Positions 1 through 57,588 of a stretch of 64,000 nt of DNA are shown piece by piece. The notes beneath the pieces are model-generated. The model searched no databases and was not told the DNA's origin. It saw nothing but the letters and a program-made list of their open reading frames with translations. The stretch is from Acidisarcina sp. (GTDB lineage: Bacteria > Acidobacteriota > Terriglobia > Terriglobales > Acidobacteriaceae). The stretch's first letter is position 1. Each line of letters starts with the position of its first letter. A program made the translations under genes and the position numbers. The stretch spans positions 124,001-188,000 of the forward strand of contig DATLIY010000007.1 in the NCBI GenBank assembly GCA_035539175.1, given 5' to 3'.

Positions 1-662
1 CCGCCAAGCTCATCGACGCATTGGCGAACGCGGTGGATTGCCAACTGATGTGCGGCAGGATCTCGCACGATACCGCCCTTGCCGATATGCTCCCTGCCAG
101 CCTCAAACTGCGGCTTCACCAGCACCACCGCTTCCAGTGCGGATGACGGGCCACTCAGGATCGCGGGGATCACTGAGGGAAGCACCAAAGTGGCCGAGAT
201 GAAGGATACGTCCATCGAGAGAAAGGTGATGCCTGCAGGCAGTCCCCCGGGCTGGAGAAGCCTCGCGTTGGTACGCTCCATCAACTCCACGCGCGCATCG
301 GATCGCAGCTTTTGGGCTATCTGCCCATACCCGGTATCGACCGCGAGCACCCGCCGCGCACCATGCTGCAACATGCAGTCGGTAAAGCCTCCGGTCGAGG
401 CTCCGACATCCAGGCAAAAACGATCGTTCAGGTCGATCTTCCAGTGCGCGAGCGCCGCTTCGAGCTTGAGCCCGCCCCGGCTCACATAGCGCAGATCTTC
501 GCCCAGCAGCCGAAACACCGCATCCTCGGATACTGGTGCTCCTGGCTTTTCGATCTTCTGCTCGTTCACGAGAACGCGCCCGGCAAGGATCATTGCCTGG
601 GCGCGTTCTCGTGTCGCGATAACTCCCCGCGCCACCAGCAGCTTGTCCAGCCTCGTCTTCAT
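1..662 (-). CDS. tlyA: TlyA-family rRNA 2'-O-methyltransferase (C-terminus cut by window edge)
   Basis: Reading the minus strand from the ATG at 662 gives an uninterrupted frame that runs off the left edge. The first ~60 residues form an S4 RNA-binding domain (begins MKTRLDKLLVARG, then a segment containing RAQAMILAGRVLVN). Next comes an FtsJ-like SAM domain with LDVGASTGGFTDCML as motif I, and KPQFEAGREHIGKGGIVRDP further on. That order is diagnostic of TlyA/hemolysin-A proteins, which 2'-O-methylate rRNA; family members are about 250-275 aa, so roughly the last 40-50 residues are missing. It lies 15 nt downstream of the beta-propeller lipoprotein gene and is probably co-transcribed with it. 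Despite the old hemolysin name, an rRNA methylation role is the safer call. Confidence 0.93.
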   Translation of the reverse strand, partial: MKTRLDKLLVARGVIATRERAQAMILAGRVLVNEQKIEKPGAPVSEDAVFRLLGEDLRYVSRGGLKLEAALAHWKIDLNDRFCLDVGASTGGFTDCMLQHGARRVLAVDTGYGQIAQKLRSDARVELMERTNARLLQPGGLPAGITFLSMDVSFISATLVLPSVIPAILSGPSSALEAVVLVKPQFEAGREHIGKGGIVRDPAAHQLAIHRVRQCVDELG

Positions 663-4529: not shown

Positions 4530-5375
4530 ATGCAGACGGCTCGAAACCAGACGCGTATTCGCATTGTACAGAGCCGGCAGAATAGCCGGGTGAAAGAACT
4601 GCGTGCCGCTCTCTCCCGCGGCCCTCGCAGCTCCCAGGACCCCGTCGCTCTGGAAGGTTTGCACCTGGTCGAAGAGGCCCTGCGCAGCGGATTGAAGGTC
4701 ACCACGGTCTTTCTCCGCCAGGGCAGCGAACCGTTGCTGGATACCCTACCGCTTGCGTCGGAGACCGAAGTTCTTGCGCTTCCGCCGGAGGTTTTTGCCA
4801 GTGCGCTTACCACCGAATCCCCCCAGGGAGTCGCGGCGCTTGCTCTCCCTCCCCACTTCGATCCCCAGGATCTCTTTCGCCGCCAGCCCCTGATCCTCGT
4901 CGCTGCCGGGCTGCAGGATCCCGGCAATATGGGGACGCTGCTGCGCTCCGCGGAAGCGTTTGGCGCAACCGGCATTCTCGCTTTGCCCGGCACCGTCAGC
5001 CAATGGAATCCGAAGGCCCTTCGCGCCTCTTCCGGATCGGCCTTCCGCCTGCCAGTGTTCGCCATGGGCGAGGGAGACGCCGTGGCCCTGCTGCGGCAGC
5101 ATCGCCTTCTTCTGCTGGCCACTACCGTCAATGGGGGCACCCCTCTGCGGGAGATGAACCTGAACCAGCCCTGCGCCCTGCTGATCGGCAATGAGGGCGG
5201 CGGGCTGTCACAATCGCTGCTCGAGAAGGCAGATGCAGCCGTCACCATTCCCTGTGACGGACCGGTGGAATCGCTAAACGCCGCCGTCGCGGCCAGCATC
5301 GTGCTCTATGAGGCGTCTCGTCAGCGAAGCTTGCTCTCCACCGCTCTTGCCTCGCGGGAGCTCACACGGCCATGA
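4530..5375 (+). CDS. TrmH/SpoU-family RNA 2'-O-ribose methyltransferase
   Basis: 281 aa from the ATG at 4530. The frame is open further upstream, but that part lies antisense to tsaC and its composition does not look coding, so the internal ATG (MQTARNQTRIRIVQSRQNSR) is preferred. The N-terminal ~105 residues fit the SpoU substrate-binding domain. The C-terminal SPOUT knot is clear: LQDPGNMGTLLRSAEAFGA (motif 1), LIGNEGGGLSQSLLEKA (motif 2) and IPCDGPVESLNAAVAASIVL (motif 3). The target, rRNA (RlmB-like) or tRNA, cannot be decided from sequence alone. The stop overlaps the rarA start in an ATGA, implying translational coupling. Confidence 0.92.
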   Translation: MQTARNQTRIRIVQSRQNSRVKELRAALSRGPRSSQDPVALEGLHLVEEALRSGLKVTTVFLRQGSEPLLDTLPLASETEVLALPPEVFASALTTESPQGVAALALPPHFDPQDLFRRQPLILVAAGLQDPGNMGTLLRSAEAFGATGILALPGTVSQWNPKALRASSGSAFRLPVFAMGEGDAVALLRQHRLLLLATTVNGGTPLREMNLNQPCALLIGNEGGGLSQSLLEKADAAVTIPCDGPVESLNAAVAASIVLYEASRQRSLLSTALASRELTRP

Positions 5376-6709
5376 GTCTCTTCGATCAAACGCCCGATCT
5401 GAGCGCCCACGACAGAAGCCAGGCCGCTCCCCTTGCCGAGCGCATGCGCCCGCGCACGCTCGACGAGTACGTCGGGCAGGAGCACCTGCTGGCTCCAGGC
5501 AAGCCATTACGGGTCCAGATTGAACGCGACGATGCTGCGTCGATGATCTTCTGGGGGCCTCCCGGCGTTGGAAAGACCACGCTTGCCAAGATCATTGCCG
5601 AAACCACCAAGGCCAGCTTTATCGAGTTCTCCGCCGTCCTCAGCGGCATCAAGGAGATCAAGCAGGTGATGGTGGACGCCGAAAAGGCCGCAGCCTACGG
5701 CTCGCGCACCATCCTCTTCATCGACGAGATTCACCGCTTCAACAAAGCTCAGCAGGATGCGTTTCTTCCCTACGTTGAGCGGGGAACCATTCGCCTCATC
5801 GGTGCGACGACGGAGAATCCTTCGTTTGAAGTGATCGCCGCCTTGCTATCGCGCTGTCGGGTCTTCACGCTGCACCCGCTCACCCAGCCTCAGTTGATCC
5901 TGCTGCTGGAACGCGCTCTGAAAGACGAGACCCGCGGTCTTGGCTCGTTGCACCTCGAAGCCGATGCGGATGCTCTCGCCATGATCGCCGACTACTCCAG
6001 CGGGGACGCGCGCAACGCATATAACGCGCTGGAGATGGCCGCACGCATGTCCAGCGATGGCCGGATCACCAAGGCTATTGCCGGGGAAGCGCTGCAGCAG
6101 CGGGTTCTACTTTACGACAAGCATGGCGAGGAGCATTACAACCTCATCTCTGCCCTGCATAAGTCTGTGCGGAACAGCGATGCCGATGCTGCTCTCTATT
6201 GGCTGGGCCGCATGCTGCAAGGCGGCGAAGACCCCATGTACATTGCCCGGCGCGTAGTTCGTATGGCGGTGGAGGACATTGGCCTTGCCTCACCGGAAGC
6301 GCTGAACCTGACTCTCTCCGCACGCGATGCCATGGATTTTCTTGGTTCGCCGGAAGGAGATCTCGCGCTTGCGCAGGCAGTCGTCTACCTGGCGCTGGCT
6401 CCAAAGTCGAACGCGGTCTACACCGCCTACGGTGCGGTTCGCAGCGATATTGAGGCGACGCGCGCCGAACCCGTTCCCCTTCACCTTAGAAACGCGCCGA
6501 CCAGCCTGATGAAGTCCCTCGACTACGGCAAAGGCTACAGATATGCGCATGACGAAGAGGGCCGCGTTGCGGATATGGACTGCCTGCCGGAAAGCCTGCT
6601 GGGACGCAGCTACTATCACCCGACGCAGGAAGGCCGGGAGAAGCTGCTGGCGCAGCGGATGGCTGAGATCAAGCGGATCCGCGCTGCAAAGCACAAGCGT
6701 GAGGAGTAG
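5372..6709 (+). CDS. rarA: Replication-associated recombination ATPase RarA/MgsA
   Basis: 445 aa. AAA+ core: ERMRPRTLDEYVGQEHLL at the N-terminus, Walker A FWGPPGVGKTTLA (residues ~58-70), Walker B ILFIDEIHRFNKAQQD, sensor 1 GATTENPSFEV, then the C-terminal MgsA/RarA tetramerisation domain (VRNSDADAALYWLGRML, MAVEDIGLASPEAL). The family acts at stalled replication forks and interacts with SSB. It is translated from an ATGA overlap with the upstream methyltransferase and ends exactly where the convergent dsbD gene ends, with no intergenic base. Confidence 0.97.
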   Translation: MSLFDQTPDLSAHDRSQAAPLAERMRPRTLDEYVGQEHLLAPGKPLRVQIERDDAASMIFWGPPGVGKTTLAKIIAETTKASFIEFSAVLSGIKEIKQVMVDAEKAAAYGSRTILFIDEIHRFNKAQQDAFLPYVERGTIRLIGATTENPSFEVIAALLSRCRVFTLHPLTQPQLILLLERALKDETRGLGSLHLEADADALAMIADYSSGDARNAYNALEMAARMSSDGRITKAIAGEALQQRVLLYDKHGEEHYNLISALHKSVRNSDADAALYWLGRMLQGGEDPMYIARRVVRMAVEDIGLASPEALNLTLSARDAMDFLGSPEGDLALAQAVVYLALAPKSNAVYTAYGAVRSDIEATRAEPVPLHLRNAPTSLMKSLDYGKGYRYAHDEEGRVADMDCLPESLLGRSYYHPTQEGREKLLAQRMAEIKRIRAAKHKREE

Positions 6710-8791
6710 TTACTGCCGCTGAAGACCATTCAACGCATCGATAACGATGCCTGCGGTCAGCACCTCGGGAAGCAGGCGAGGCGGTTCAGTCGCCGATGCC
6801 GGATAGATGGCATACGTCGGCACTCCGCTGCGGCCCAGTTGCGCCAGCGTCTGCGCAATCATCCCATCGTGCTGCGTCCAGTCCGCGCGTAGCAGCACCA
6901 TTCCACTCTGCTTCAAGCGCTGCTGCACGTCGCTCCGGTCGAGCACCACGTGTTCGTTTACCTGGCAGCTCAGACACCAGCTCGCGGTAAAGTCCACGAA
7001 GACCGGCTTGCCAAGTGCGCGATACTTCTCCACGGCCGCCGGAGTGAAAGGCTCCCATGTAAGGTCGCCGGACTTTGCCGTCGTTTGTATTGGAGACGCG
7101 GTACGCACGGCATAGACCGGGATAGCCACGGCGATTGCCGCGACCACGATTGCGAAGACAGAAGCCATCCGCTTTGCCGGCCATCGGCCTACGATCCACC
7201 CCGCAACCGCCAGCATCAGGAGCGCAGCCAGCAGGCCGATCAGCGCATTTACACCAGCCGACTGCGTAAACACCCACACCAGCCAGATCACGGTGCCGAA
7301 TACCGGAATGGCGGTTGCCTGCTTCAAGACTTCCATCCATGCCCCGGGCCGAGGCAAAAGCCGCGTCCATGCCGGATTGAACGTCAACAGGAGGTAAGGC
7401 AACGCCAGGCCAAGCGCGACCGCCGTAAAGATAAGGAACGTAACTCCCGCAGGTTGGGCCAGCGCAAAACCGATAGCCACGCCCATAAACGGAGCCGTGC
7501 ACGGAGTAGCGACCACCATCGCCAGCACTCCGGTAAAGAAGCTCCCCGTGTATCCGCTGCGCTTCGCCAGGGAGCTGCCAGCACTCGTGAGCGTCAGGCC
7601 GATCTCAAATTGTCCTGCGAGCGACAGGCCAAGGAAGAACAGCAGCATTGCCATCAGGGCCACAAAAACGGGCGACTGAAATTGAAATCCCCAGCCCAGT
7701 TGCCGTCCACCTGCACGAAGCAGCAATAGCGCGGCAACCACAGCCCAGAATGACACCAGGATGCCGAGGGCATAGACCATCCCATGCATCCGCATACGGT
7801 GGCGATCTTCTGTGGAAGACTGTACCAGCGCCAGACCCTTCAGAAACAGCACCGGGAAGACGCATGGCATCAGGTTCAGCAGCAGTCCGCCCAGCATTGC
7901 CAGCCCTGCAATCCGCAGCACCATACCTGCGCTCGCCCTGGGAGCCGCCATCGGCGCGGTGGGCACGGTTCCCTGCTGGGCATTTACCAGGTAGCCGACG
8001 CCGTCCAGCACGATCAGACCGCGAAGCCGGTCTGGATCCTTCTTCAGATCTTCGTCCTTCTTCAGGTCGATCAGCAATCCGTCAGGTAGTGACTGAACCG
8101 GCTCCGGAGCGGGATTACTGATTTCATCCCGATGAAGCGGAAAGAATTGCGCCCCCGACTCTCTCTTCCCTGTAATCACCGCCATGCGAAAGCCGGTCGC
8201 AGTGGGCGCGAATCGGACCTGCCATGACGCGGGAAGCGGTTGCGGCAGGGTCTTGCTCAGGCGATCGAACAACGCAGCCACATCCGGATTGACCGGCGGA
8301 GGAGTGGTTGCGCTCCCTGCAATATCGAGCGATACATTCGCCTTTCCCGGAATGCAGACCTCACGGCACACCAGCCAATCCACCTTCGCGGCCAGCGGCT
8401 CATGCTGACCTGGCTTCAGCGCCGTCTTCACCTTCATGGGGATTGGGAATAACACCTCGTTCTCGTAGCCGTAATCCATGTAGGGTCCGAGCGGCAAACG
8501 GCCAGGCGTCGGAAACTGGATGGGGCTCGCGGAGAATCCCGGCGGCAGGTTCCACTTCACGGTCGGCGGAAGTCCCGAGTCGCCAGCATTGACCCAGTAA
8601 ATGTGCCACCCCTTCTCCAGCTTGAAATACAGACCCGCCTCGAAGGATCCCGGCGACGCAATAGCTGGAGTTGGCGTCAGCAACTCCACCGTCAGATGGG
8701 GAGCACTCACGGGCGCAGCGTGAAGCATCGCCGCTCCCATAGTGGCAAGCATGGCGACAACGATCCATATTCTAAGCAAGGGTGCCTTCAT
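6710..8791 (-). CDS. dsbD: DsbD-family thiol:disulfide interchange protein
   Basis: 693 aa from the ATG at 8791 (MKAPLLRIWIVVAMLA), which begins a good signal peptide; an in-frame start 54 nt upstream would add a non-signal-like N-terminus. Domain order: signal peptide; periplasmic alpha domain with the CREVCIPG cysteine pair; about eight membrane helices with NLMPCVFPVLFLKG and VATPCTAPFMG (the membrane cysteine pair); C-terminal thioredoxin domain with FVDFTASWCLSCQVNE (CLSC). It carries electrons from cytoplasmic thioredoxin across the inner membrane to periplasmic thiols. A perfect 12-bp palindrome lies about 17 bp upstream of the start. Confidence 0.95.
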   Translation of the reverse strand: MKAPLLRIWIVVAMLATMGAAMLHAAPVSAPHLTVELLTPTPAIASPGSFEAGLYFKLEKGWHIYWVNAGDSGLPPTVKWNLPPGFSASPIQFPTPGRLPLGPYMDYGYENEVLFPIPMKVKTALKPGQHEPLAAKVDWLVCREVCIPGKANVSLDIAGSATTPPPVNPDVAALFDRLSKTLPQPLPASWQVRFAPTATGFRMAVITGKRESGAQFFPLHRDEISNPAPEPVQSLPDGLLIDLKKDEDLKKDPDRLRGLIVLDGVGYLVNAQQGTVPTAPMAAPRASAGMVLRIAGLAMLGGLLLNLMPCVFPVLFLKGLALVQSSTEDRHRMRMHGMVYALGILVSFWAVVAALLLLRAGGRQLGWGFQFQSPVFVALMAMLLFFLGLSLAGQFEIGLTLTSAGSSLAKRSGYTGSFFTGVLAMVVATPCTAPFMGVAIGFALAQPAGVTFLIFTAVALGLALPYLLLTFNPAWTRLLPRPGAWMEVLKQATAIPVFGTVIWLVWVFTQSAGVNALIGLLAALLMLAVAGWIVGRWPAKRMASVFAIVVAAIAVAIPVYAVRTASPIQTTAKSGDLTWEPFTPAAVEKYRALGKPVFVDFTASWCLSCQVNEHVVLDRSDVQQRLKQSGMVLLRADWTQHDGMIAQTLAQLGRSGVPTYAIYPASATEPPRLLPEVLTAGIVIDALNGLQRQ

Positions 8792-8807
8792 GAAGAGTGG
8801 TCCCGCC

Positions 8808-8819
8808 CGAAAGCTTTCG
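8808..8819. promoter_or_regulatory. 12-bp perfect palindrome upstream of dsbD
   Basis: CGAAAGCTTTCG reads the same on both strands and lies 17-28 bp before the dsbD start codon, inside the 102-bp gap to the CoA-binding gene. It could be an operator half-site pair. A 12-bp palindrome can also arise by chance, and no second copy was noticed nearby. Confidence 0.25.
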
Positions 8820-8893
8820 CCTTCTATTCTAACCGGAATCGGCATCGCATCGAAGCTACGCAGGATAGGCCTGGCAGGTGCAATGTGAGCCGA

Positions 8894-9307
8894 TCAACCG
8901 TAAATACGGGCGTGTTCCCTGAAGATACAGCGGTCCATCACCACTTTGATGCCGTCAGCCTCGGCCCATCCCGCAGCCTCGTCGTGGCACACACCTTCCT
9001 GCAGCCACAGATACGGAATTTTGAGCCGCATTACATCTTTCACAATCTCCGGAACAAACGCTGAAGCGCGAAATACATCCACCAGGTCAATCTTTCCGAC
9101 GGCCCGGCATGCATCCTCCAGCGTGGGATAGCAGGTCTCCCCAAGAATCTGCGTGGCTGCGGGGTTCACCGGAACAATGCGATAGCCTTGCTGCTGCATG
9201 TAGCGGGAAACTCCAAAGCTTGGGCGGTCAGCCTTGTCAGACAATCCGATGACGGCAATGGTTTTGGTGTTCCGTAGAATCTCTTCGATCGTCTCTGGCT
9301 CGTTCAT
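8894..9307 (-). CDS. CoA-binding domain protein (YccU/CoA_binding_2 family)
   Basis: 137 aa, a single Rossmann CoA-binding domain: TIAVIGLSDKADRPSFGVSR, YRIVPVNPAATQILGE, VDVFRASAFVPEIV, IPYLWLQEGVCHDEAA and ending VVMDRCIFREHARI. These small stand-alone proteins resemble the CoA-binding part of succinyl-CoA synthetase and bind CoA; their role is undefined. It stands between prfB and dsbD on the same strand, with 51 bp to prfB upstream and 102 bp to dsbD downstream, so co-transcription is possible. Confidence 0.9.
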   Translation of the reverse strand: MNEPETIEEILRNTKTIAVIGLSDKADRPSFGVSRYMQQQGYRIVPVNPAATQILGETCYPTLEDACRAVGKIDLVDVFRASAFVPEIVKDVMRLKIPYLWLQEGVCHDEAAGWAEADGIKVVMDRCIFREHARIYG

Positions 9308-9358
9308 CTGTCAGTTGCCTCCCAGTGGCTCAAGCTCAAACCCCTTGAGATGCTGGAT

Positions 9359-10499: not shown

Positions 10500-12157
10500 C
10501 ACGTAAGGAGACCTGTCTTTTCAAGAAGAATCTGGCGGCGGCGAATGTACAACAACTTCCCCGCCCGTGCCGTTGCCACTATCGCGATTATGGCACACAG
10601 GATTGCAAAGATGTCGCCATGGGTCGAATAGAAGGTCAGGTCGTCACGGAACCCATAGCTGCCATAGAGCGAACTCTGCTGATTCCGCGGGATGCTTACC
10701 GTCAACCGGCCATAGGGATCGATGATGGTTGTCGTGCCGTTATTGGTATCGCGAAGGATCCAGCGCCGGTTTTCAATGGCACGCATGCGCGCCATGTTGA
10801 GGTGCTGCCAGGGAGCGCTGGTGTCTCCATACCATCCGTCATCGGAGATGTTCACGAAGACCTCGGCTCCATTCACCGCAAACTGGCGTACCTCGTCGGC
10901 AAAGATCGATTCGTAGCAGATAAAGACTCCGTAGCGGTGCCCGCTGGTGCGAAAGACCTTGCGATACTCCCCGCGCCCAAAGTCAGAGACATTCCGGGTC
11001 AGGTGGCCCGCGAACGTGAGCAGATTCTTGAAGGGCACGTACTCGCCAAACGGTACCAGGTGAATCTTGTCATAGCGCCCGACAAACTGTCCGCTGGGCG
11101 CAACTATCTGTGCCGAGTTAAATATCTGGTAGCTCTCCGGCTTTACATCGATCCCTATAATTCCGGCAATCACCGAAGCGCCGGTCTCCGTTGCAAGCCG
11201 GCGCATCACGTCCTGAAAGCGCGGATCTATATCTCGAAATGCAGTAGGTGCTTCCGGCCAGACGATCACCGCTGGTAATTTCGCAGGTTGCGTACAGGGA
11301 ACCTCGATCGATGGCGCACCCGTCTCCGGCATCCCGGCGATATAGGTGCCGCAGGTTTGCTTGCTCAAGGCTGAAAAAGCCTGGGCATGCGCGTCATAGT
11401 CTGCGCCTACCCAGTCCTGATTGCTCTTTACGCTCAAGTTAGGCTGCATGAGAACGGCGGTTGCCTGCGTAGGCTGCTGAGGCGGGGGGAAGAAATGCCC
11501 CATCTGCAGGCAGACTGCAAGCAGCAACCCCACAACGCCAAGCTGTAGCTGGAGTTTGCGAGTGCCCGCCAGAAGCGCCGCCGCCAGCAGCGCACTAACG
11601 GATGCCAGCAGGAAAGATAGTCCATACACGCCTGTGATGGTTGCAATCCGGGTCAGCCAGTAGTTCTCTACCTGTGAGTAGCCCAGTTGGTCCCACGGAA
11701 CACTGGTGATGCGGGACGCGGCAAACTCCAGCGCCACCCAGAATATGGGAACCGCCAGCAAGGCTGGCAGGTTCCGGCCAAAGCTTTTGCGCATGAGCGC
11801 GATAAAAAATCCAAATAGCGCGAAGTAAAGCCCGAGAACAAGGCTGTATCCCAGTAGAATCGCCGCGGAAGCAGCCGCTGAAATTCCACCGTAGTAGAAC
11901 ATCGTCTGGTAGATCCAGTAGCAATTCCCCAGATACCAAAGCACACCCGTAAGGTATGCAAGCAGCGCGCTACGGCGCAGATAATGCGGCTCGGCCACAC
12001 GATTGCCATGCAGCAACGCAAAAATCAGCGGTACCAGCGCCGCCCAGCCAAAGACCGTACGCCACCAGGGCACTGGCCCGGCGATCGGAAACGGCAGCAA
12101 GAGAAGAAACGCGGACAGGACTGCATGGACCCAAGGCAGATTCTTGAGCGTATTCAT
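10499..12157 (-). CDS. lnt: Apolipoprotein N-acyltransferase
   Basis: 552 aa. N-terminal half: about seven membrane helices (FLLLLPFPIAGPVPWWRTV, GWAALVPLIFAL and following). C-terminal half: a nitrilase-type periplasmic domain with the expected triad context: VIVWPEAPTAF (Glu), GRYDKIHLVPFGEYVPF (Lys) and GVFICYESIF (Cys). It adds the third acyl chain to diacylglyceryl-modified lipoproteins. This fits a genome with many lipoproteins; at least four are predicted in this window. Its stop overlaps the prfB start. Confidence 0.95.
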   Translation of the reverse strand: MNTLKNLPWVHAVLSAFLLLLPFPIAGPVPWWRTVFGWAALVPLIFALLHGNRVAEPHYLRRSALLAYLTGVLWYLGNCYWIYQTMFYYGGISAAASAAILLGYSLVLGLYFALFGFFIALMRKSFGRNLPALLAVPIFWVALEFAASRITSVPWDQLGYSQVENYWLTRIATITGVYGLSFLLASVSALLAAALLAGTRKLQLQLGVVGLLLAVCLQMGHFFPPPQQPTQATAVLMQPNLSVKSNQDWVGADYDAHAQAFSALSKQTCGTYIAGMPETGAPSIEVPCTQPAKLPAVIVWPEAPTAFRDIDPRFQDVMRRLATETGASVIAGIIGIDVKPESYQIFNSAQIVAPSGQFVGRYDKIHLVPFGEYVPFKNLLTFAGHLTRNVSDFGRGEYRKVFRTSGHRYGVFICYESIFADEVRQFAVNGAEVFVNISDDGWYGDTSAPWQHLNMARMRAIENRRWILRDTNNGTTTIIDPYGRLTVSIPRNQQSSLYGSYGFRDDLTFYSTHGDIFAILCAIIAIVATARAGKLLYIRRRQILLEKTGLLT

Positions 12158-28088: not shown

Positions 28089-28285
28089 AAACAATTCCGC
28101 CGCCAACCGGCAACAACCTTTCGACTCCTCATTCTTTCGCAGTTCTGAAAATATCGCGGCAATTCGCGCAAGGTGGTACCCTCACGGAGGATCCGTTACC
28201 AGGATCGATTCGGATGGTTCCATCCCGTTTTGTTTTTTGTAAAGCTGCTGCACACACGATAAGAATCTTCCCTTACAGGACCATT

Positions 28286-31200
28286 ATGCTGATGAAGATC
28301 CGCTCTGCCCTTGGTTCGTTTCCGCGCTTCCTTTTAGTTGCTCTGCTCACGACCGGCTTCGGCGGCGTTTCCCGCCTTCACGCACAGACAATCATCCCCT
28401 CACGCATAACAGCGCCGATCAACGAGAACGCGCCGGTTCGCCTGCGCGGCAATGTTCATCCCCTGGCGCGGGCAGAGTTCGATCGCGGCGCGGCTCCCGT
28501 CTCCCTGCCTGCGGAACGCATGCTCCTCCTCCTCAAGCGCGCGCCGGAGCAGCAGAAGGCGCTCGATGAGTATCTCCGGGCGCTTCAAGATCCCACGTCC
28601 CCGAGCTATCACAAATTCATCACACCCGAAGAGTTCGGCAAGCTCTACGGGCCAGCGGACGCGGATATCCAGACCGTCACCAACTGGCTACAGGGTCACG
28701 GGTTCCAGGTCAACCAGATATCGAAAGGTCGCACCGCGCTGGAATTCTCCGGCAGTGTCGGCCAGGTTCAGGGGACATTCCAGACCTCAATCCATAGCTT
28801 TATCGTGCACGGACAACAACACTGGGCCAACACCACGGACCCGAGTATTCCAACTGCGCTCGCGCCAGTCATTGCAGGCCTCAGCCCGCTGAACAACTTT
28901 ACGGCTCGGCCAAACAGCACGCGAGCCCCCAGCGCCACCTATGATCCCAGTACGCATACGGTTACGCCGCTGCTTACCTCGACCTCGGGCGGCAACTTTC
29001 TTTACGTGGGCCCAGCCGATGCAGCGACCATCTACAACACACCCAACGCATCTCTGAACCTCAACTATTCTTCCACTACGCCGTCCTACGACGGATCGGG
29101 CATCACGATCGCGGTCGCCGGCGTCTCTCAGATCAACACCTCCGACGTGGACCACTACCGCACGATCTTCGGATTACCAGCCAATACCCCACAGGTCATC
29201 GTGGATGGCACCGACCCTGGCCACAATGACGCTGAAGACGAGGCGCTACTCGACCTTGAAATATCAGGCGCACTTGCCCCGGGCGCAAAAACAATTCTCT
29301 ACACCGCTGCTAGCACCACCCTGCAGGATGGTCTTTTCCTCGCCATTACACGAGCGCTGCAGGACAACACCGCCAGCATTCTCAACGTCAGCTTCGGCAA
29401 CTGCGAAGCTGCCTTTGGCAACAGCGGGAATCAGTACATTTCCAGCCTGTGGGAGCAGGCCGCGGCGCAGGGTATCTCCGTCACGGTATCCACCGGAGAC
29501 TCCGGATCGGCAGGCTGCGACGATCCTAACGCGGTAACAGTCGCCTCGAAGGGCCTTGGGGTAAACGGATTGGCATCCTCGCCGTACAATATCGCCGTCG
29601 GCGGAACGGACTATACCACTCTCCCCACCAACTTTCTTACCTATGCCAGCACAACGAACCGTCAAGGCACTCGCGGCTCAGCCCTGAAGTACATTCCTGA
29701 GGGTCCCTGGAATGACTCCACCAGTTTTGACGGAAAGCTCGCGCAGAACTCGCCGCTCACCGATAAAAACGGAGCCAAGAATATCTGGGGTGGTGGTGGC
29801 GGAGTAAGCATCTACTACACCAAGCCGGCATGGCAGAAGAACGTCACGCCTCAGGATGGGGTGCGAGACCTGCCCGATGTCTCCCTGCTGGCCGCGGATG
29901 GCCTCTACTCTGCAACGTGGGCCGTCTGCGCTTCTCCCTATGTCAACTCGTCCGGAGTGACGATTACAGACTGCGTACCCAACACCTCCACCAACACCTA
30001 TTACCTCTCGGGCTTCGGTGGCACATCGACCTCCGCCCCCGCCTTCGCAGGAATGCTGGCGTTGGTGCAACAGAGCGTTGGCCACAGGCTGGGCCAGGCG
30101 AACAGCGTGCTTTACAAACTCTCACAGACCGCTCCCGCCGTCTTTCATGACGTCACAACGGGCAATATCTCTGTCTATTGCAGCGGGGGAACGGCCGCGA
30201 ACTGCGGCACCAACAGCTTCCTCACCGGCTATGACGCAGGCACGGGCTACGATCTCGCCTCTGGTCTCGGCAGTGTCGATGCCACTGCGATGATCAAGAA
30301 CTGGGCCAGCGCGGGCCTTAGCGCCAGCACAACCACGCTCAGCCTTAGTCAGACAACCTTCACCCATGGCACGCCAGTAACGATCAATATAGGCGTCTCC
30401 GGCAGCGGCGGCACGCCCACCGGAGATGTAGGTCTCGTCAGCAGCAACACCAGTGCGGATGCAGGGGGATTAGGCTTCCTAACCCTGGGCACGTCCGGGA
30501 CCGCCTCGACCAGCTACAGCTACTTCCCCGGCGGTAGTTACTCGGTCTCTGCAAATTACGGAGGCGATACAATTTTCTCAGGCAGCGCTTCTCCTGCAGT
30601 CCAGATCACAGTAGCCCCGGAGGCCAGTACTCTCCAGCTCACCGCCCAAACCATCGTAGGCAACAACCTGGTCAGCGTCGCTAACACGAGCTTCCCTTAT
30701 GGAACCTACGTCTCTGTCGACGCCACGCCCATTGGCCAGTCGCAGAAGGGACAGACATCTCCCACTCCACTGGGAACTGGTTCCGTCACCTTTACGGATA
30801 CTCACGCGCCTGTCACTGCCAGCACGGTGGCTGTCAACTCCAATGGCAGCGCCGAACTGCCAATCTATTCTTATGACCCTGGCCCGCATAGCATCAGCGC
30901 CGTCTACTCAGGAGATGCCAGCTTTACGGGAAGCAGCGGGGGCCCGGTAGCATTCACCGTCACGGATGCGGCACTGTCTGCGGCGTCCACCTCCCTTGCC
31001 CTCTCTGCAGGCCAAAGTAAGCCTGTAACCCTGACACTCACCCCATCCAATGGCTTCAGCGGAACGGTCAGCCTGAGTTGTGCTTTCACCGCTGGCCCCA
31101 CCAACGCGGTCTCCATCCCCACCTGCAGCATTTCTCCTGCGACCGTCGCAATCAGTGGGACATCCTCTGCGAGCGCAACGCTTACCATTGCAACCAGCAC

Positions 31201-31501
31201 CACCAAATCTGGAGCGGTGCACTATCCCGGCTGGATTACTAGCGGCGGAGGCGCGGTACTGGCATGCCTTCTCTTCTTCGGTATCCCGGCGCGGCGCAGC
31301 AGCTGGCGCGCGATAGTGTCACTCCTCTTCTTCGTGGGTGTCATCTCCGCGACGGGATGCGGTGGAGGAGGCAGCAGCACGACTGGCAGCACGAGCGGCG
31401 GTACAACTGGAACCACTCCAGGAAATTACACCGTAACTGTGACAAGCTCCACCAACGGATCGGTCATGCACAAACTCGACATTCCCGTCACCGTAAACTA
31501 A
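28286..31501 (+). CDS. Secreted S53 (sedolisin/pro-kumamolisin) peptidase with Ig-like and C-terminal anchor modules
   Basis: 1071 aa from the ATG at 28286 (another ATG at 28292); signal peptide to about SRLHAQ. Order: pro-kumamolisin activation domain (residues ~30-190, SPSYHKFITPEEFGKLYGP); S53 catalytic domain with EALLDLE (Glu/Asp of the triad near 29240), STGDSGSAGC (oxyanion Asp) and GGTSTSAPAFAGM (Ser near 30025); two Ig-like repeats (GVSGSGGTPTGDVGLVSSN; GTGSVTFTDTHAPVTAST); then a beta module interrupted by two hydrophobic segments, a CGGGG lipobox-like site and a Ser/Thr/Gly linker. It is predicted to be an acid-active exported endopeptidase. Followed by a terminator. Confidence 0.93.
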   Translation: MLMKIRSALGSFPRFLLVALLTTGFGGVSRLHAQTIIPSRITAPINENAPVRLRGNVHPLARAEFDRGAAPVSLPAERMLLLLKRAPEQQKALDEYLRALQDPTSPSYHKFITPEEFGKLYGPADADIQTVTNWLQGHGFQVNQISKGRTALEFSGSVGQVQGTFQTSIHSFIVHGQQHWANTTDPSIPTALAPVIAGLSPLNNFTARPNSTRAPSATYDPSTHTVTPLLTSTSGGNFLYVGPADAATIYNTPNASLNLNYSSTTPSYDGSGITIAVAGVSQINTSDVDHYRTIFGLPANTPQVIVDGTDPGHNDAEDEALLDLEISGALAPGAKTILYTAASTTLQDGLFLAITRALQDNTASILNVSFGNCEAAFGNSGNQYISSLWEQAAAQGISVTVSTGDSGSAGCDDPNAVTVASKGLGVNGLASSPYNIAVGGTDYTTLPTNFLTYASTTNRQGTRGSALKYIPEGPWNDSTSFDGKLAQNSPLTDKNGAKNIWGGGGGVSIYYTKPAWQKNVTPQDGVRDLPDVSLLAADGLYSATWAVCASPYVNSSGVTITDCVPNTSTNTYYLSGFGGTSTSAPAFAGMLALVQQSVGHRLGQANSVLYKLSQTAPAVFHDVTTGNISVYCSGGTAANCGTNSFLTGYDAGTGYDLASGLGSVDATAMIKNWASAGLSASTTTLSLSQTTFTHGTPVTINIGVSGSGGTPTGDVGLVSSNTSADAGGLGFLTLGTSGTASTSYSYFPGGSYSVSANYGGDTIFSGSASPAVQITVAPEASTLQLTAQTIVGNNLVSVANTSFPYGTYVSVDATPIGQSQKGQTSPTPLGTGSVTFTDTHAPVTASTVAVNSNGSAELPIYSYDPGPHSISAVYSGDASFTGSSGGPVAFTVTDAALSAASTSLALSAGQSKPVTLTLTPSNGFSGTVSLSCAFTAGPTNAVSIPTCSISPATVAISGTSSASATLTIATSTTKSGAVHYPGWITSGGGAVLACLLFFGIPARRSSWRAIVSLLFFVGVISATGCGGGGSSTTGSTSGGTTGTTPGNYTVTVTSSTNGSVMHKLDIPVTVN

Positions 31502-48409: not shown

Positions 48410-49163
48410 GTCTTCCCCCGGTTCTCTGAATGGACAAGCACATTTCATACGTCGCAATACGTCGCAGTGGCGCTGAAGGGGTCCCGGGCGAGTAGGTTGA
48501 AGGAAGATACCAACGCCCTCCCCGTTCATATTCTGTCGCGAGGATCGCCTAAGCTCTCGCGTCGATGTACGCGGGGCGGAAGATCTTCGCGTCATGGTTC
48601 TGTGCAAATGAGGGGCCACTTCCAGCACATCGCTCTTCTTTAAAGGACGAATCGCAGTTGGAAAGCCAGGCCCGCTCTGAGATAACGCTCCTGCAATCCC
48701 ATTGTTAGACGTGGATGAGTAAGGCTGGGTTGTAACAGTAATGGATATTCGATTGCAGCAAAGAGGGCTGGAATCGGCAGTACGTTGCATACTTCGGCTA
48801 GCGGGTTACCTCTAGCTATTGGACGATAAGAGCGGACCACTTACTTTCGTAATAGATTGCGCCGATTTTGAAGTTTCCGGCTGGAGGCTTCAGCTTCAAG
48901 TCATTACTTTGTAATTGCAGGTGTTGCGTGTGGAACCGATTTTCGCACCGCCATTTCAGGATTGCGGCTGCTGTTAAGAAGGCAATTTAGATGAGTGCGT
49001 CCTATGGCTCCTTGGTATATGTCACCGTCTCAGGCACGCTTTCTGGGATAAATAGTGCAGAACATTGCACACTAGCTGGACGTAATTAGCATCTCTTAAG
49101 GTAAGTACTTTGTCTCAACTGTTCCTGCGTCGTCTAAAAAGCTCTGACGAAAGGATCGAATGT
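48410..49163. other. Long divergent intergenic region
   Basis: 754 bp between the diverging giant glycosidase and IPT lipoprotein genes. Open frames here (such as 48362-48643 plus strand) lack ribosome sites and protein-like patterns. A split inverted repeat GTGCA (49054-49058) / TGCAC (49065-49069) with a 6-base spacer lies ~95 bp upstream of the lipoprotein start. The length suggests long leaders or several regulatory sites for the exopolysaccharide region. Confidence 0.45.
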
Positions 49164-51380
49164 ATGGGCTTGCAACGGTCTCGCACTCTTCTGCTCCTTG
49201 TGTATCTCTCAGCGTTACTGCTAGTGGGGTGTGGAGGATTCAAAGGAGTAGTTACACCAACTCTCTCCTCCATCTCGCCTTCAACCATCGCTGCGGGCAG
49301 CGCCGGTTTCACGCTCACAGCCAATGGCAGTAACTTCACCGGCGGAACGAAGATTGTGTGGGACGGTGTCGCGCAACAGACCACGGTAGTCTCCAACACC
49401 CAGTTGACAACTACCATCTCTGCAGCCCAGATTGCATCTCCTGGAACCATCGCCATCAGCATTCTCAAGTCGGATACCACTTCCTCCAATGTGCTCAAGT
49501 TAACGATCACCGGAACGGGCCCACAAGGTCCCACGCTCACCTCAATCTCTCCCTCCACCATAGCCGCCGGCAGTGCAAGCTTCACCCTCACGGCTACAGG
49601 CACGAACTTCACAAAGGGCAGCACGATCACCTGGAACGGCGTCTCCATCAGCACCACCACATTCGATTCGGCGACTCAACTTCACGCCACCATCTCCGCC
49701 GCACAGGTCGCGCTTCCCGGCACCGTCAACGTGGGCATCCTCGACTCCACCAACACCCTGTCGAATCAACTTCCCTTCACTATCACCGGCACAGGCTCCA
49801 CCGCGCCACCTACGCTCACTTCGCTCAATCCATCCACCGTAGTGGCCGGAAATCCTGGCTTCACGCTGACCGCTACCGGGACCAACTTCGTAAATGCCAG
49901 CCAGATTACATGGAATGGCGCCCCCCTCACCACGACCTTTGTGTCGGCAACGCAACTCACGTCTGTGATTTCAGCAACCTCCCTCGTTGCAGCACAGAAT
50001 GTAAACGTGGCTGTGCTGAATCCTGACAGCACAATTTCCAATTCTTTGACCTTTGAAATCTCTGCGAACCCGGATGTCTCCCCGACGCTTACTTCTATCA
50101 ACCCATCCGTCGTCGCCGCAGGAAGTCCTGCGTTCACGATGACGCTGGTTGGAACGAACTTTGATAATGCAGCGGTCGTGCAATCGACGAATTCGAATGT
50201 GACGACAAATCTGACGACGACTTTCGTCAGCCCCACGCAACTTACCGCACAGATTCCTGCCTCGATGCTTACGGATATAGGGCAATATCAGATCACCGTC
50301 CAGAACCCAGGCCCGAGAATTTCGAATCCAAGACCTCTTTATGTCGGCATTGTCACTTACTTCGGAGAGGTGAAGGATCTGGTCTGGGATCCGCAGCACC
50401 AGTTGTTCTATGCCTCGGTACCGAACGAATCCACCAGGAGCCCCAATACGGTTGTGGCGCTCACACCAACGGGCAAACCTACATTCCACCCGGTCCCGGG
50501 GGATCCCGATCGCCTCGCGATCTCCGGCGACGGGCAGTATTTGTATGTTGGGCTCGACGCAAAAGGAACGGTTCAGCGTTATAGTCTGCCCAGCTTTACA
50601 CCGGATATCAGTGTGTCGCTAGGTGCGGATCCTAACCTGGGCCCGTACTATGCGCTCGATCTCCAGGTCGCGCCGGGAGCACCGCATACGATCGCGGTAT
50701 CTCGAGGAATACCCGGCACAGCTTCCATCTATCAGGCGCAAGGCGGCGTCGCGATATATGATGACGCGGTCCAGCGCCCCTCTGTTGTCACACCTACCAG
50801 CCAGCCCGGAGTTACGGCGCTGCTGGATACGATTCAGTGGGGAGCCGATAGCACCATACTTTATGCTGCAGATTATGAGAACGCCGGTGGCGACTTCTAC
50901 CAACTGGCGGTGTCTCCGTCTGGCGTAACCTTTGTCAGCGATCACCCCAACTACTTCCCGCCTCCTGATCTCCGCATTCATTTCGATACGGGGAAGCTCT
51001 ATGGAGATGATGGTGCCGTCGTCGATCCTGTAAGTGCCACCCAATTGAAGAGCTTTGTTGCCGGAGGAATCATGACTCCCGACTCCACTCTGGGGCTGGC
51101 CTATTTCCTGGGACAACCCGCGGCTCAATCTGGCACCGTGGGCTACCTGCTCCAATCCTTCAACCTCGCGTCTACCAATGCAATCAAGGGCATCCCGCTC
51201 TATAACATTCAAGGCGCGCCTCAGCACATGGTCCATTGGTCGACAACTGGAACGAGCACAGTCAACGGTCTGGCCTTCAGTACATCCAAGATCGCTAACT
51301 GCGCATTCTCCCCCTGCTCTACCAGTTCTGGAGGGGTCTATATCCTCGTCGGTCCATTTATCACCAGCACAGCACCGTAG
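49164..51380 (+). CDS. Lipoprotein with four IPT/TIG repeats and a beta-propeller
   Basis: 738 aa from the ATG at 49164, with AAAGGA about 10 nt upstream. Lipobox LLLVGCGG at residues ~19-26. Residues ~35-395: four tandem ~90-aa IPT/TIG domains, each starting PTLTSISPSTIAAGSA-like and containing FTLTATGTNFTKGSTITWNG; DNA repeat units lie at ~49258-50340. Residues ~400-738: a propeller-like domain (VKDLVWDPQHQLFYASVPNE, DRLAISGDGQYLYVGLDAKG). The layout is seen in surface sugar- or protein-binding lipoproteins. Its position at the head of a co-directional run in the glycan locus suggests surface glycan binding, not shown. Confidence 0.85.
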   Translation: MGLQRSRTLLLLVYLSALLLVGCGGFKGVVTPTLSSISPSTIAAGSAGFTLTANGSNFTGGTKIVWDGVAQQTTVVSNTQLTTTISAAQIASPGTIAISILKSDTTSSNVLKLTITGTGPQGPTLTSISPSTIAAGSASFTLTATGTNFTKGSTITWNGVSISTTTFDSATQLHATISAAQVALPGTVNVGILDSTNTLSNQLPFTITGTGSTAPPTLTSLNPSTVVAGNPGFTLTATGTNFVNASQITWNGAPLTTTFVSATQLTSVISATSLVAAQNVNVAVLNPDSTISNSLTFEISANPDVSPTLTSINPSVVAAGSPAFTMTLVGTNFDNAAVVQSTNSNVTTNLTTTFVSPTQLTAQIPASMLTDIGQYQITVQNPGPRISNPRPLYVGIVTYFGEVKDLVWDPQHQLFYASVPNESTRSPNTVVALTPTGKPTFHPVPGDPDRLAISGDGQYLYVGLDAKGTVQRYSLPSFTPDISVSLGADPNLGPYYALDLQVAPGAPHTIAVSRGIPGTASIYQAQGGVAIYDDAVQRPSVVTPTSQPGVTALLDTIQWGADSTILYAADYENAGGDFYQLAVSPSGVTFVSDHPNYFPPPDLRIHFDTGKLYGDDGAVVDPVSATQLKSFVAGGIMTPDSTLGLAYFLGQPAAQSGTVGYLLQSFNLASTNAIKGIPLYNIQGAPQHMVHWSTTGTSTVNGLAFSTSKIANCAFSPCSTSSGGVYILVGPFITSTAP

Positions 51381-55632: not shown

Positions 55633-57588
55633 ATGCAGTTTTCTAAAGTTCTCATTGCATTTCTTGCAACTCTGGCAATGCCAGCATGCGCGCTCGCACA
55701 GGCGAACGTCACAGAGAACCAGACCACCTACTTATATGTAGACGCAAGCTCTGGCTCAGATCTTAACCCGGGAACACAATCCCAGCCGTTTCGCACCGTA
55801 GGGAAAGCCGCCGCCAAGGCGAAATCAAATAATGTCAGCGGCATCGGAACGAAAGTCTTCATAAATCCCGGTGTTTATAGGGAATTTCTTAACATCTCGG
55901 CTACCTACGGGCAGACATCGGCCCCCATTACCTTTCAGGCTACCCAGACCGGCACAGCGATCCTCTCGGCTTCTGATGTCCTTACCGGCTGGTCTAAGGG
56001 AAGCACCGCTGTCTATACCCACGCATGGAACTACAACTTCGGCACCTGTGCCGTACCGTCCGGATGGCCTTCGGGATTCGCACCTGTAGTTCTACGTACT
56101 GAGATGGTTTTTGTGAACCATATCCCCTATACGCAGGTCATGTCCCGCTCCCTCATGCGTGCCGGGACGTTTTACGTGGACGAGGCCGCGAACCTTATCT
56201 ACCTTTGGCCCTCCTCCACCACAAGCATGAGCACGGCTCTGGTGGAAGCAGCGGTTCGCCCACAGACTCTTCAGGTCCAAGGCCGCACGAACATGGTCTT
56301 CCGTGGGCTTGTCTTCAGTCATGCAGCAAGCTGCATCAATCAGAAGAGTGCGAACGTCTATGGCAGTACGAACATCCTGTTCGACAGCATTCAGGCAAAC
56401 TGGAACAACTGGGGCGGCCTGGGGATCAACACCAGCAACTACATCACGGTAAAGAATTCTGTTGCAAGCTATAACGGCGGCGTAGGATTTTCCGGTCTTC
56501 AAACACGCCATGCTCTCTATCAGTACGACGAGAGCGACTACAACAACTGGCGCGGTGCAATGGGAGCGCTTTACAACTGGGGCATGGGCGGCACCAAACT
56601 CATGGGAATGCACACCGCCACGGCAGATCAGATCCATGCCTACCGCAATCAAGCGCAAGGATTGTGGTTCGATACCGATAACAAGAACATCACCATCAGC
56701 AACGCGAGACTCGTACAAAACACCTTTGCGAATCTCCAGTTAGAAGCGAATGAAGGACCCGTTTCCCTTTCCGGCAGCGCGCTATGCTCCGGTGGAATTG
56801 GAATGAACATCATCAACACGGCGAAATTGACCGCGACCGGGAATGCCTTCTACAACAACGGCGGCACAAATAAATGGCAAGGCCAGTTCTTCCTCGCAGG
56901 AAAACCCGGAGGCCGTCAGATTACTGACTGGGAAACTGGTCAGGTGTACTATCTCTACACCCAAAATACAACCATGCACGGCAATCTCTTCCAGGATTCT
57001 GGTGCTGGGCAGTTTGTATTTGCTACGTTTCTATCCGGGACGGATTGGAGCTACTTCGCGGGATCGCTTACCTCCAATAACAACTATTGGTACGATGGCA
57101 CCTCGACCAAGAAGTTTACTCTTCCCAATGGCAAACTGGCAGACCTTCCCGGCTGGCAAGGGAACACAGGCGAGGACCTCGCTTCTGTCTGGACTACCAA
57201 TACGACATTGTCAAATACTTGCGGCGTTCCTGCTCCAACTTACACGGATTACGCCATAAATCTGGATAACTACACCTACAGCATGTCCGGGGGGAAGGCC
57301 GCAATCAAGATGTGGGTCAACTCGTTTGGGTATGGAACGGTTTCCCTCTCCGTGGCGGGATTGCCTTCGGGTGTGACAGCCGCTTTCTCGCAAAACTCCC
57401 TGATCAGCGGTGCGCCTGTGCTGACCCTTACTGCATCTTCGACCGCAACCAACCAGACCGTGCCTGTAACGGTTATCGGCACCAGTGGGAGCCGTGTGCA
57501 TACGGTCACGGTTAATGTACATATCATTCCGTCTACGACCGTTGCCGCTGCGGCGGCTCCTACGGACTTGCAGGCGGTCCTTAACTAA
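55633..57588 (+). CDS. Exported right-handed parallel beta-helix protein with C-terminal beta module
   Basis: 651 aa. Signal peptide MQFSKVLIAFLATLAMPACA to about ALAQ. A DUF1565-type start (YLYVDASSGSDLNPGTQSQP, PFRTVGKAAAKAK) leads into ~450 residues of parallel beta-helix coils rich in Asn and aromatic residues (NILFDSIQANWNNWGGLGIN, YITVKNSVASYNGGVGFSGL, NITISNARLVQNTFANLQLE). Residues ~550-640 are a beta-sandwich module (GTVSLSVAGLPSGVTAAFSQ ... VTVIGTSGSRVHTVTVNVHI). This fold is used by polysaccharide lyases and glycosidases; the position in the locus suggests it trims or cuts the exported polymer. Terminator follows. Confidence 0.85.
   Translation: MQFSKVLIAFLATLAMPACALAQANVTENQTTYLYVDASSGSDLNPGTQSQPFRTVGKAAAKAKSNNVSGIGTKVFINPGVYREFLNISATYGQTSAPITFQATQTGTAILSASDVLTGWSKGSTAVYTHAWNYNFGTCAVPSGWPSGFAPVVLRTEMVFVNHIPYTQVMSRSLMRAGTFYVDEAANLIYLWPSSTTSMSTALVEAAVRPQTLQVQGRTNMVFRGLVFSHAASCINQKSANVYGSTNILFDSIQANWNNWGGLGINTSNYITVKNSVASYNGGVGFSGLQTRHALYQYDESDYNNWRGAMGALYNWGMGGTKLMGMHTATADQIHAYRNQAQGLWFDTDNKNITISNARLVQNTFANLQLEANEGPVSLSGSALCSGGIGMNIINTAKLTATGNAFYNNGGTNKWQGQFFLAGKPGGRQITDWETGQVYYLYTQNTTMHGNLFQDSGAGQFVFATFLSGTDWSYFAGSLTSNNNYWYDGTSTKKFTLPNGKLADLPGWQGNTGEDLASVWTTNTTLSNTCGVPAPTYTDYAINLDNYTYSMSGGKAAIKMWVNSFGYGTVSLSVAGLPSGVTAAFSQNSLISGAPVLTLTASSTATNQTVPVTVIGTSGSRVHTVTVNVHIIPSTTVAAAAAPTDLQAVLN

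Follow-up and report, generated by a model that had tools for sequence, protein, structure and literature searches.

A putative internal lipoprotein signal within a predicted split Ig-like domain at the C-terminus of acidobacterial exported proteins

Bacterial lipoproteins, which are handled by Lgt, LspA, Lnt and the Lol system, carry a basic n-region, a short hydrophobic core and a lipobox with G/A/S before the Cys, followed by a Gly/Ser-rich stretch; in E. coli, an Asp at position +2 of the lipoprotein Cys bears on release to the outer membrane. In the GAIN domains of adhesion GPCRs and in donor-strand complementation of pili, a chain break is bridged, or two chains are held together, by beta strands that complete a fold. 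In the MYXO-CTERM/myxosortase system, surface proteins carry an invariant Cys, for which lipidation has been proposed, in front of a single terminal hydrophobic helix that has Arg at its end (PMC11980579). GlyGly-CTERM/rhombosortase signals consist of a glycine-rich start, a hydrophobic helix and a basic cluster and occur on extracellular proteases (PMC13393428, PMC6219818).

The tail described here was found at the end of a peptidase encoded in the window, i.e., the whole 64,000-nucleotide stretch of Acidisarcina sp. DNA that was analysed. The peptidase gave Pfam matches to Pro-kuma_activ (2e-29) and Big_3_5 (1.9e-21) and contains a GGTS motif at residue 602. The features are as follows:

28214..31501, + strand: tail-bearing S53 peptidase (kumamolisin/sedolisin-type), 1095 aa, with a signal-peptide-like stretch near the N-terminus
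30965 to about 31192-31204, + strand: N-terminal part of the predicted split Ig-like domain, strands A-E (AlphaFold2 strands; unbroken-module HMM, 39.3 bits)
31193..31243, + strand: linker between strand E and helix 1, mostly without regular structure (AlphaFold2); possible site of a second cut
31244..31288, + strand: hydrophobic helix 1, GGGAVLACLLFFGIP (AlphaFold2 helix 90-105)
31289..31309, + strand: basic loop ARRSSWR, expected to be cytoplasmic
31310..31357, + strand: hydrophobic helix 2, AIVSLLFFVGVISATG, with lipobox SATG (AlphaFold2 helix 113-129)
31358..31360, + strand: Cys1049 of the lipobox, where lipidation and the LspA cut are predicted, as judged by conservation
31361..31417, + strand: Gly/Ser/Thr linker after Cys1049; in variants longer and with an added domain
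31418..31498, + strand: last two strands (F, G), predicted to complete the Ig-like domain (AlphaFold2 strands 153-163 and 166-177, block pLDDT 94-97; HMM gain over shuffled strands)
57289..57513, + strand: unbroken copy of the same module in a beta-helix protein (residues 555-629 of the stop-to-stop ORF from 55627; 36.0 bits, unbroken-module HMM)

Taken together, the basic loop and helix 2 look like a type II signal peptide in an internal position. As in bacterial lipoproteins, the tail has a basic n-region, a short core (16 residues from ARRSSWR to the Cys), a G/A/S-Cys lipobox and a Gly/Ser-rich follow-on, with no Asp at +2. Unlike in these lipoproteins, about 1025 residues, including another hydrophobic helix, precede the signal, the Cys being residue 1049 of 1095, so that it is not an N-terminal signal, and the piece predicted to be lipidated is the C-terminal end. 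The tail resembles MYXO-CTERM in pairing an invariant Cys with an Arg-bearing hydrophobic helix, but here the Cys follows helix 2 and is itself followed by a strand pair, an order that differs from that of MYXO-CTERM. With GlyGly-CTERM, it has in common the glycine-rich start, helix and basic cluster and the occurrence on extracellular proteases; the tail departs from it in that the hairpin is not terminal (63 residues follow the ARRSSWR loop in the window peptidase) and in that the genome contains no rhombosortase over the cut-off. A Pfam match of the hairpin to DUF4131 (E 0.031) was below the cut-off and was discarded.

The preliminary description of this locus had known no name for such tails. 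This has been superseded, as the window tail matches the NCBIfam model NF058595.1, invert_tail (June 2026 release), with 51.9 bits at a cut-off of 37, residues 976-1095 aligning with model positions 3-113 of 113 and the match ending at the last residue, 1095. In the NCBIfam scan of the peptidase at E<=1, the only other match was to one unrelated family. NF058595 is thus a named, functionally unproven family, and a recently named one; literature searches retrieved neither a paper on the tail nor the term 'lipo-invert'. We infer a sorting or anchoring function for the tail, and NCBIfam independently calls it, in the title of the model, a "lipo-invert putative C-terminal anchoring domain". What we add are a proposed mechanism based on a split domain, the mobility of the cassette and the variants with a spacer domain; with these, the anchoring hypothesis becomes open to direct test.

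Six full-length tails are encoded in the genome of the window, which measures 3.9 Mb and is 99.96% complete, five of them over the NF058595 cut-off and one at 32.6 bits. The model can give false positives, because intact Ig modules without the hairpin exceed its cut-off: of three such modules at C8:528353-529087 of genome G000 (L006-L008), two, matching model positions 71-113 only, reached 40.6 and 37.3 bits, and the third reached 34.3 bits.

For comparison with the split module, an HMM of the unbroken module was built from 25 copies from 7 proteins, containing no split copies. Unbroken copies are present in the window's own genome (L006-L008) and, in tandem and just before the split copy, at L064 and L092. 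The N-terminal part of the window tail alone scored 39.3 bits against this HMM, and joining the last strands to it raised the score to 54.6 bits. Over 90 tails, the joined strands gave a median gain of 12.7 bits, exceeding 5 bits in 73/90, while strands shuffled as a control (mean of 10 shuffles per tail) gave a median of -3.0 and a gain of more than 5 bits in 0/90; reversed strands exceeded 5 bits in 1/90 tails. With a looser cut of the N-terminal part, which kept more of the linker, the median gain was 2.8 bits with many negative values, and more than 5 bits were gained in 71/174 tails versus 0/174 after shuffling; here the best alignment spanned the junction in 149 of the 174 tails, compared with 33 with shuffled strands.

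AlphaFold2 modelling of the uncut chain of the window tail placed the strands within positions 2-76 and 153-177, with block pLDDT values of 94-98, and the two hairpin helices at 90-105 and 113-129 (pLDDT about 72). The predicted beta-sandwich superposes on solved, continuous Ig-like domains: VIA-align of model 1..178 gave Z 13.1 over 103 residues at 2.1 A with Vpr 594-700, and Z 12.3 over 97 residues at 2.2 A with the Micromonospora sialidase 405-502. The flanks of the insert are therewith predicted to form one Ig domain. The preliminary description had proposed that a membrane hairpin with a lipobox splits a beta module at the end of the S53 peptidase, as a membrane or lipidation cassette between its last strands that might act as a sorting signal, and that the beta-helix protein carries the same module unbroken. 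The mapped anatomy and the gain on joining the strands bear out the insertion, the predicted split fold agrees with a cassette within one module, and the beta-helix copy was recovered with 36.0 bits. The two modules are related: by sequence, that of the beta-helix protein matches the HMM of unbroken modules, and the split module is predicted to superpose on continuous Ig domains.

To characterise the hairpin, 90 full-length tails were collected with a home-made HMM from the window and 80 regions of up to 20 kb, all of which had been picked for a tail listed there by the genome-sample or own-genome search; three secondary weak domain rows in already counted proteins were dropped from the initial 93 rows. 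A wider set comprised 176 tails (159 by HMM, 17 by a scan requiring a Cys), 174 of which were located automatically. The two exceptions were L056, which has the Cys and a Glu in the box, and L193, which has no Cys; L199 (open-ended) and L158 (N-broken after the Cys) were left out of the 174-tail analysis. Since the layout recurs in 176 collected tails, chance hydrophobic stretches were rejected as an explanation.

The hairpin Cys was present in 90/90 tails, counting for L109 the second Cys of GCGC, and was preceded by G in 69, A in 16 and S in 5. In the wider set it was present in 175/176 tails, with G126/A33/S15 at -1 in the 174 located ones. In an alignment of 47 tails (46 from named loci and the window tail), the Cys was one of two invariant columns. 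The densest part of the basic stretch between the helices contained 2-7 K/R, the last K/R stood 15-23 aa before the Cys, giving helix 2 the length of a signal peptide, and the piece from the Cys to the stop measured 35-56 residues, each among the 90 tails. As a control, we took from the remaining ORFs of the window and the 80 regions those Cys residues that follow a hydrophobic uncharged stretch; here G/A/S preceded 134/344. A PROSITE-type lipobox pattern fitted 132/156 hairpin Cys versus 99/344 control Cys, and 24/156 hairpin Cys failed it. This control replaced the other Cys of the same proteins, 197/1823 of which fit the pattern, a comparison that is unfair because the hairpin Cys had been pre-selected for having no charged residue before them. 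An ordinary-lipoprotein control consisted of 8 ORFs only, some of them spurious, and was kept out of the statistics.

The conserved feature of the tail is the Cys with a small residue before it. CGGGG and ARRxxW, which the preliminary description had put forward as profile features, are both common and neither is defining. CGGGG was rejected as a signature, with Gly at +2 in 60/90 tails and with tails carrying GCNPRYYY or ACSAQYGY. Among the 174 located tails, position +2 was occupied by G134/S19/A12/N5/V2/T1/I1, and none had Asp there. If the rule for E. coli applies here as well, the absence of Asp is in keeping with release to the outer membrane. The hairpin tail of L193 (ORF 5001-9356) carries Tyr at the position of the lipobox Cys; either the predicted lipid site was lost in nature, or the metagenome assembly contains a sequencing error.

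A start codon in the loop could in principle give rise to a small independent lipoprotein, by gene fusion or internal initiation. An in-frame ATG is found in the loop or early helix 2 of 43/90 tails and any start codon in 73/90, but the codon is accompanied by a Shine-Dalgarno-like stretch in 6/90 only, and the small product would comprise just two strands of the fold; we hold this explanation to be hardly credible.

The hairpin could also be a plain two-helix inner-membrane anchor, in which case the chain would remain uncut and the Ig domain would merely tolerate the insertion. Two hydrophobic helices and a basic loop suffice for such an anchor, and it was the uncut chain that AlphaFold2 modelled well. 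What it would leave unexplained is the invariance of the Cys and the restriction of the -1 residue to Gly, Ala or Ser in a hairpin that is otherwise variable, and we regard it as unlikely. The conservation of the Cys, the -1 residue and the terminal strands, together with the tolerance of very different linkers, fits better with a clasp formed by the terminal strands.

The reading we prefer, with confidence only a little beyond an even balance, is that the tail is an internal lipoprotein signal inside an Ig-like domain, at which LspA cuts the chain, and that the lipidated C-terminal piece holds the enzyme. From the arrangement of the tail we infer lipidation, LspA cutting, assembly of two chains, a second cut and an outer-membrane location, as set out below. 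The N-terminal signal peptide would export the peptidase until helix 1 stops transfer, leaving the Arg-rich loop in the cytoplasm. Acting as the signal peptide of a lipoprotein does, but from mid-chain, helix 2 and the lipobox would then lead the chain back into the periplasm. Lgt would lipidate Cys1049 and LspA would cut before it, yielding a lipopeptide of 47 residues with the last two Ig strands at its end. Since the fold to which these strands belong starts ahead of the insert, the small piece would stay clasped to the enzyme, and the peptidase would become a two-chain protein with the lipid on its C-terminal piece. The hairpin would be removed by a second cut, made either within helix 1 or ahead of it, and Lol could then carry the complex to the outer membrane. 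A mid-chain lipoprotein signal between domains, if used, would lose the enzyme upon the cut; within a beta-sandwich, the last strands can stay bound as a donor pair, the small chain bearing the lipid. The proposed clasp resembles GAIN domains and pilus donor-strand complementation in its strand completion, with no sequence relation being claimed; it differs from both in that the cut is predicted to be made by the lipoprotein signal peptidase and to serve anchoring.

The fate of helix 1 is the weakest step of this mechanism. Helix 1 and what remains of helix 2 would go on holding the large chain after the LspA cut, which we count against the clasp, and if helix 1 is neither cut nor extracted, this chain would stay in the inner membrane. 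Also counted against the clasp are the Tyr of L193, the hairpin Cys that fail the lipobox pattern, the smaller HMM gain with the looser cut and, among the variants described below, the long tails that gain nothing or lose on joining, the weakly found upstream module of L160 and L176, and the lack of a cassette in the S53 relatives L131 and L205. Helix 1 contains about 3.1 Gly/Pro per 17 residues versus 1.6 per 16 in helix 2, and in many tails it is preceded by GG or GS and followed by RRR. These properties would suit a tripartite sorting signal in the style of GlyGly-CTERM or MYXO-CTERM, where an intramembrane protease would cut at helix 1 and the Arg cluster and join the enzyme to a lipid, the remainder being discarded or separately used. 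Candidate enzymes for it would be offered by the window's genome, in which rhomboids gave two matches and CPBP proteins four. Against it, the best match to TIGR03902 was 42.7 bits at a cut-off of 84, by which rhombosortase was dismissed as a candidate, and GG is not general among the tails. The strands after the Cys are also unlikely to be throwaway, because they resemble the missing strands of the module. We consider a tripartite signal distinctly improbable. Rhomboid and CPBP matches were given up as pointers to the enzyme, being present in 14 and 11, respectively, of 14 control genomes and thus too common.

In favour of the preferred mechanism, LspA, Lnt and LolA gave one match each in the window's genome. 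A second LspA was considered and dropped, the match being single. The apolipoprotein N-acyltransferase Lnt is encoded in the window itself, at about 10706-11947 (- strand, 290.6 bits), and another window ORF, 49086-51377 (+ strand), starts with what looks like a lipoprotein signal of the ordinary N-terminal type, with LLVG-CGGF at its end, offering a comparison within the window for the internal signal. GspD-type secretins gave three matches in the genome, all below the cut-off, and a type II secretion route is for this reason not argued.

Natural variants were sought by scanning the genome contigs with an alignment of tail-bearing S53 peptidases. The best 80 of 504 relatives were kept and contained 72 S53-like ORFs, 55 of which have the tail by HMM. 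By reading, a variant cassette was recognised in 8 more (L130, L165, L175, L176, L179, L196, L201, L207); in L158 the cassette is present but its end is broken, L131 and L205 have no cassette at their ends, and L134, L137, L168, L188, L192 and L209 could not be read to the end. A scan for a hairpin with a Cys, imposing no strand requirement, returned 192 ORFs, of which 156 were tails by HMM; the other 36 were divided by reading into 18 further tails and 18 polytopic or spurious frames. All 18 further tails except the broken L158 end in a strand-like pair.

The distance from Cys to stop was up to 60 residues in 158/174 tails and longer in 16/174. Six proteins (L167, L173, L175, L184, L196, L201) have a homologous added domain between the Cys and the last strands, which in L173 was modelled as an IPT/TIG fold (144-234, Z 12.7 to EBF3). 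Model 1..262 of L173 aligned with SbsC 554-645 (Z 10.1, 90 residues), the split Ig domain being predicted to close around the IPT/TIG domain. Of the 16 tails with long C-terminal pieces, L183, L189 and L207 showed neither an HMM gain nor an alignment spanning the junction, and L093 and L175 had a lower HMM score when joined.

In three proteins, L130, L136 and L165, the module interrupted by the cassette is of the Big_3 type. Using an HMM of 12 intact modules, with the pieces chosen by eye and 30 shuffles each, the joined pieces scored 39.9, 50.4 and 31.7 bits, respectively, versus shuffle maxima of 19.7, 15.5 and 8.5. L160, L176 and L165 are syntenic orthologues, being 65-70% identical and having the same gene as their downstream neighbour. 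It is the last module that is split in L160 and L176, at a point about one strand ahead of the usual one, and the Big_3 module upstream is unsplit but weakly found (6.3 and 8.1 bits); L165 has an unbroken last module (57.7 bits), its cassette being in the preceding one. As different adjacent modules are split in L160/L176 and in L165, these comparisons show that the cassette moves between Ig modules, staying, where modelled or scored, inside a predicted Ig fold.

The in-fold position also bears on a release switch, in which the halves would separate after the LspA cut and the peptidase would be shed from the cell. Two strands alone would hold the Ig domain after the cut, which makes separation conceivable, but a switch of this kind gives no reason for the cassette to lie within a fold, as seen in L173, L130, L136, L165, L160 and L176, and the enzyme would still be held by helix 1. 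We deem it very improbable. The fullest form of the mechanism that we prefer may be called a 'lipo-clasp': LspA would cut within an Ig domain, the C-terminal lipopeptide would serve as donor strands and thereby join the lipid non-covalently to the protein, the cassette would be mobile and could accommodate a spacer domain, and secreted enzymes of acidobacteria would in this way become surface proteins. We advance this form tentatively, our confidence in it falling slightly short of even. If true, it would amount to C-terminal lipid anchoring that needs only the general lipoprotein enzymes, a remover of helix 1 and a foldable domain, with the cell using beta-strand complementation to glue together what it has cut on purpose. 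It would become predictable where many exported proteins of acidobacteria are located, and a simple anchor for surface display is suggested.

Tails are borne by peptidases, nucleases and propeller-type proteins. In a random draw of 45 of the 90 tail proteins, made among those of 300-1300 residues, the cargo matches were S53 propeptide in 14, Big_3_5 in 23, choice-of-anchor D in 11 and ExeM/NucH extracellular nuclease in 5; NF058595 matched 41/45 at E<=1e-4. According to a crude script, a signal-peptide-like start was present in 65/88 tail ORFs (two ORFs cut by the locus end being left out) versus 156/601 other ORFs of >=400 residues, and a few of the misses appear to have one from another start codon. 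The tail proteins thus look like exported proteins.

The insert is not unique to the window peptidase. In the own-family sample, 145/150 genomes matched the tail model at E<=1e-6, many with several matches, and 144/150 were over the cut-off; the 5/150 without a match were G297, G317, G348, G360 and G416. In the phylum sample of 297 genomes, a tail match at E<=1e-6 was obtained in 42 (31 from the own family, 11 from other families) and a match over the cut-off in 36, with 235 giving no match at all. Copy numbers are rough, because only the best candidates were scored per genome (14 in the 297-genome sample, 28 in the 150-genome sample) and because the model also matches intact modules. In f42, another family of the phylum, strong matches were found in G216 and G272 (L063 and L072; E 1.5e-22 and 1.0e-20), with one tail match per genome at that threshold, a pattern attributable either to old inheritance or to transfer. 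S53 peptidases with the tail also occur on contigs labelled Betaproteobacteria and Rhodanobacteraceae (L178, L208), perhaps from mis-binned genomes. At L057 and L062, three tail-bearing ORFs, some of them S53 peptidases, follow each other on the same strand, which suggests tandem expansion.
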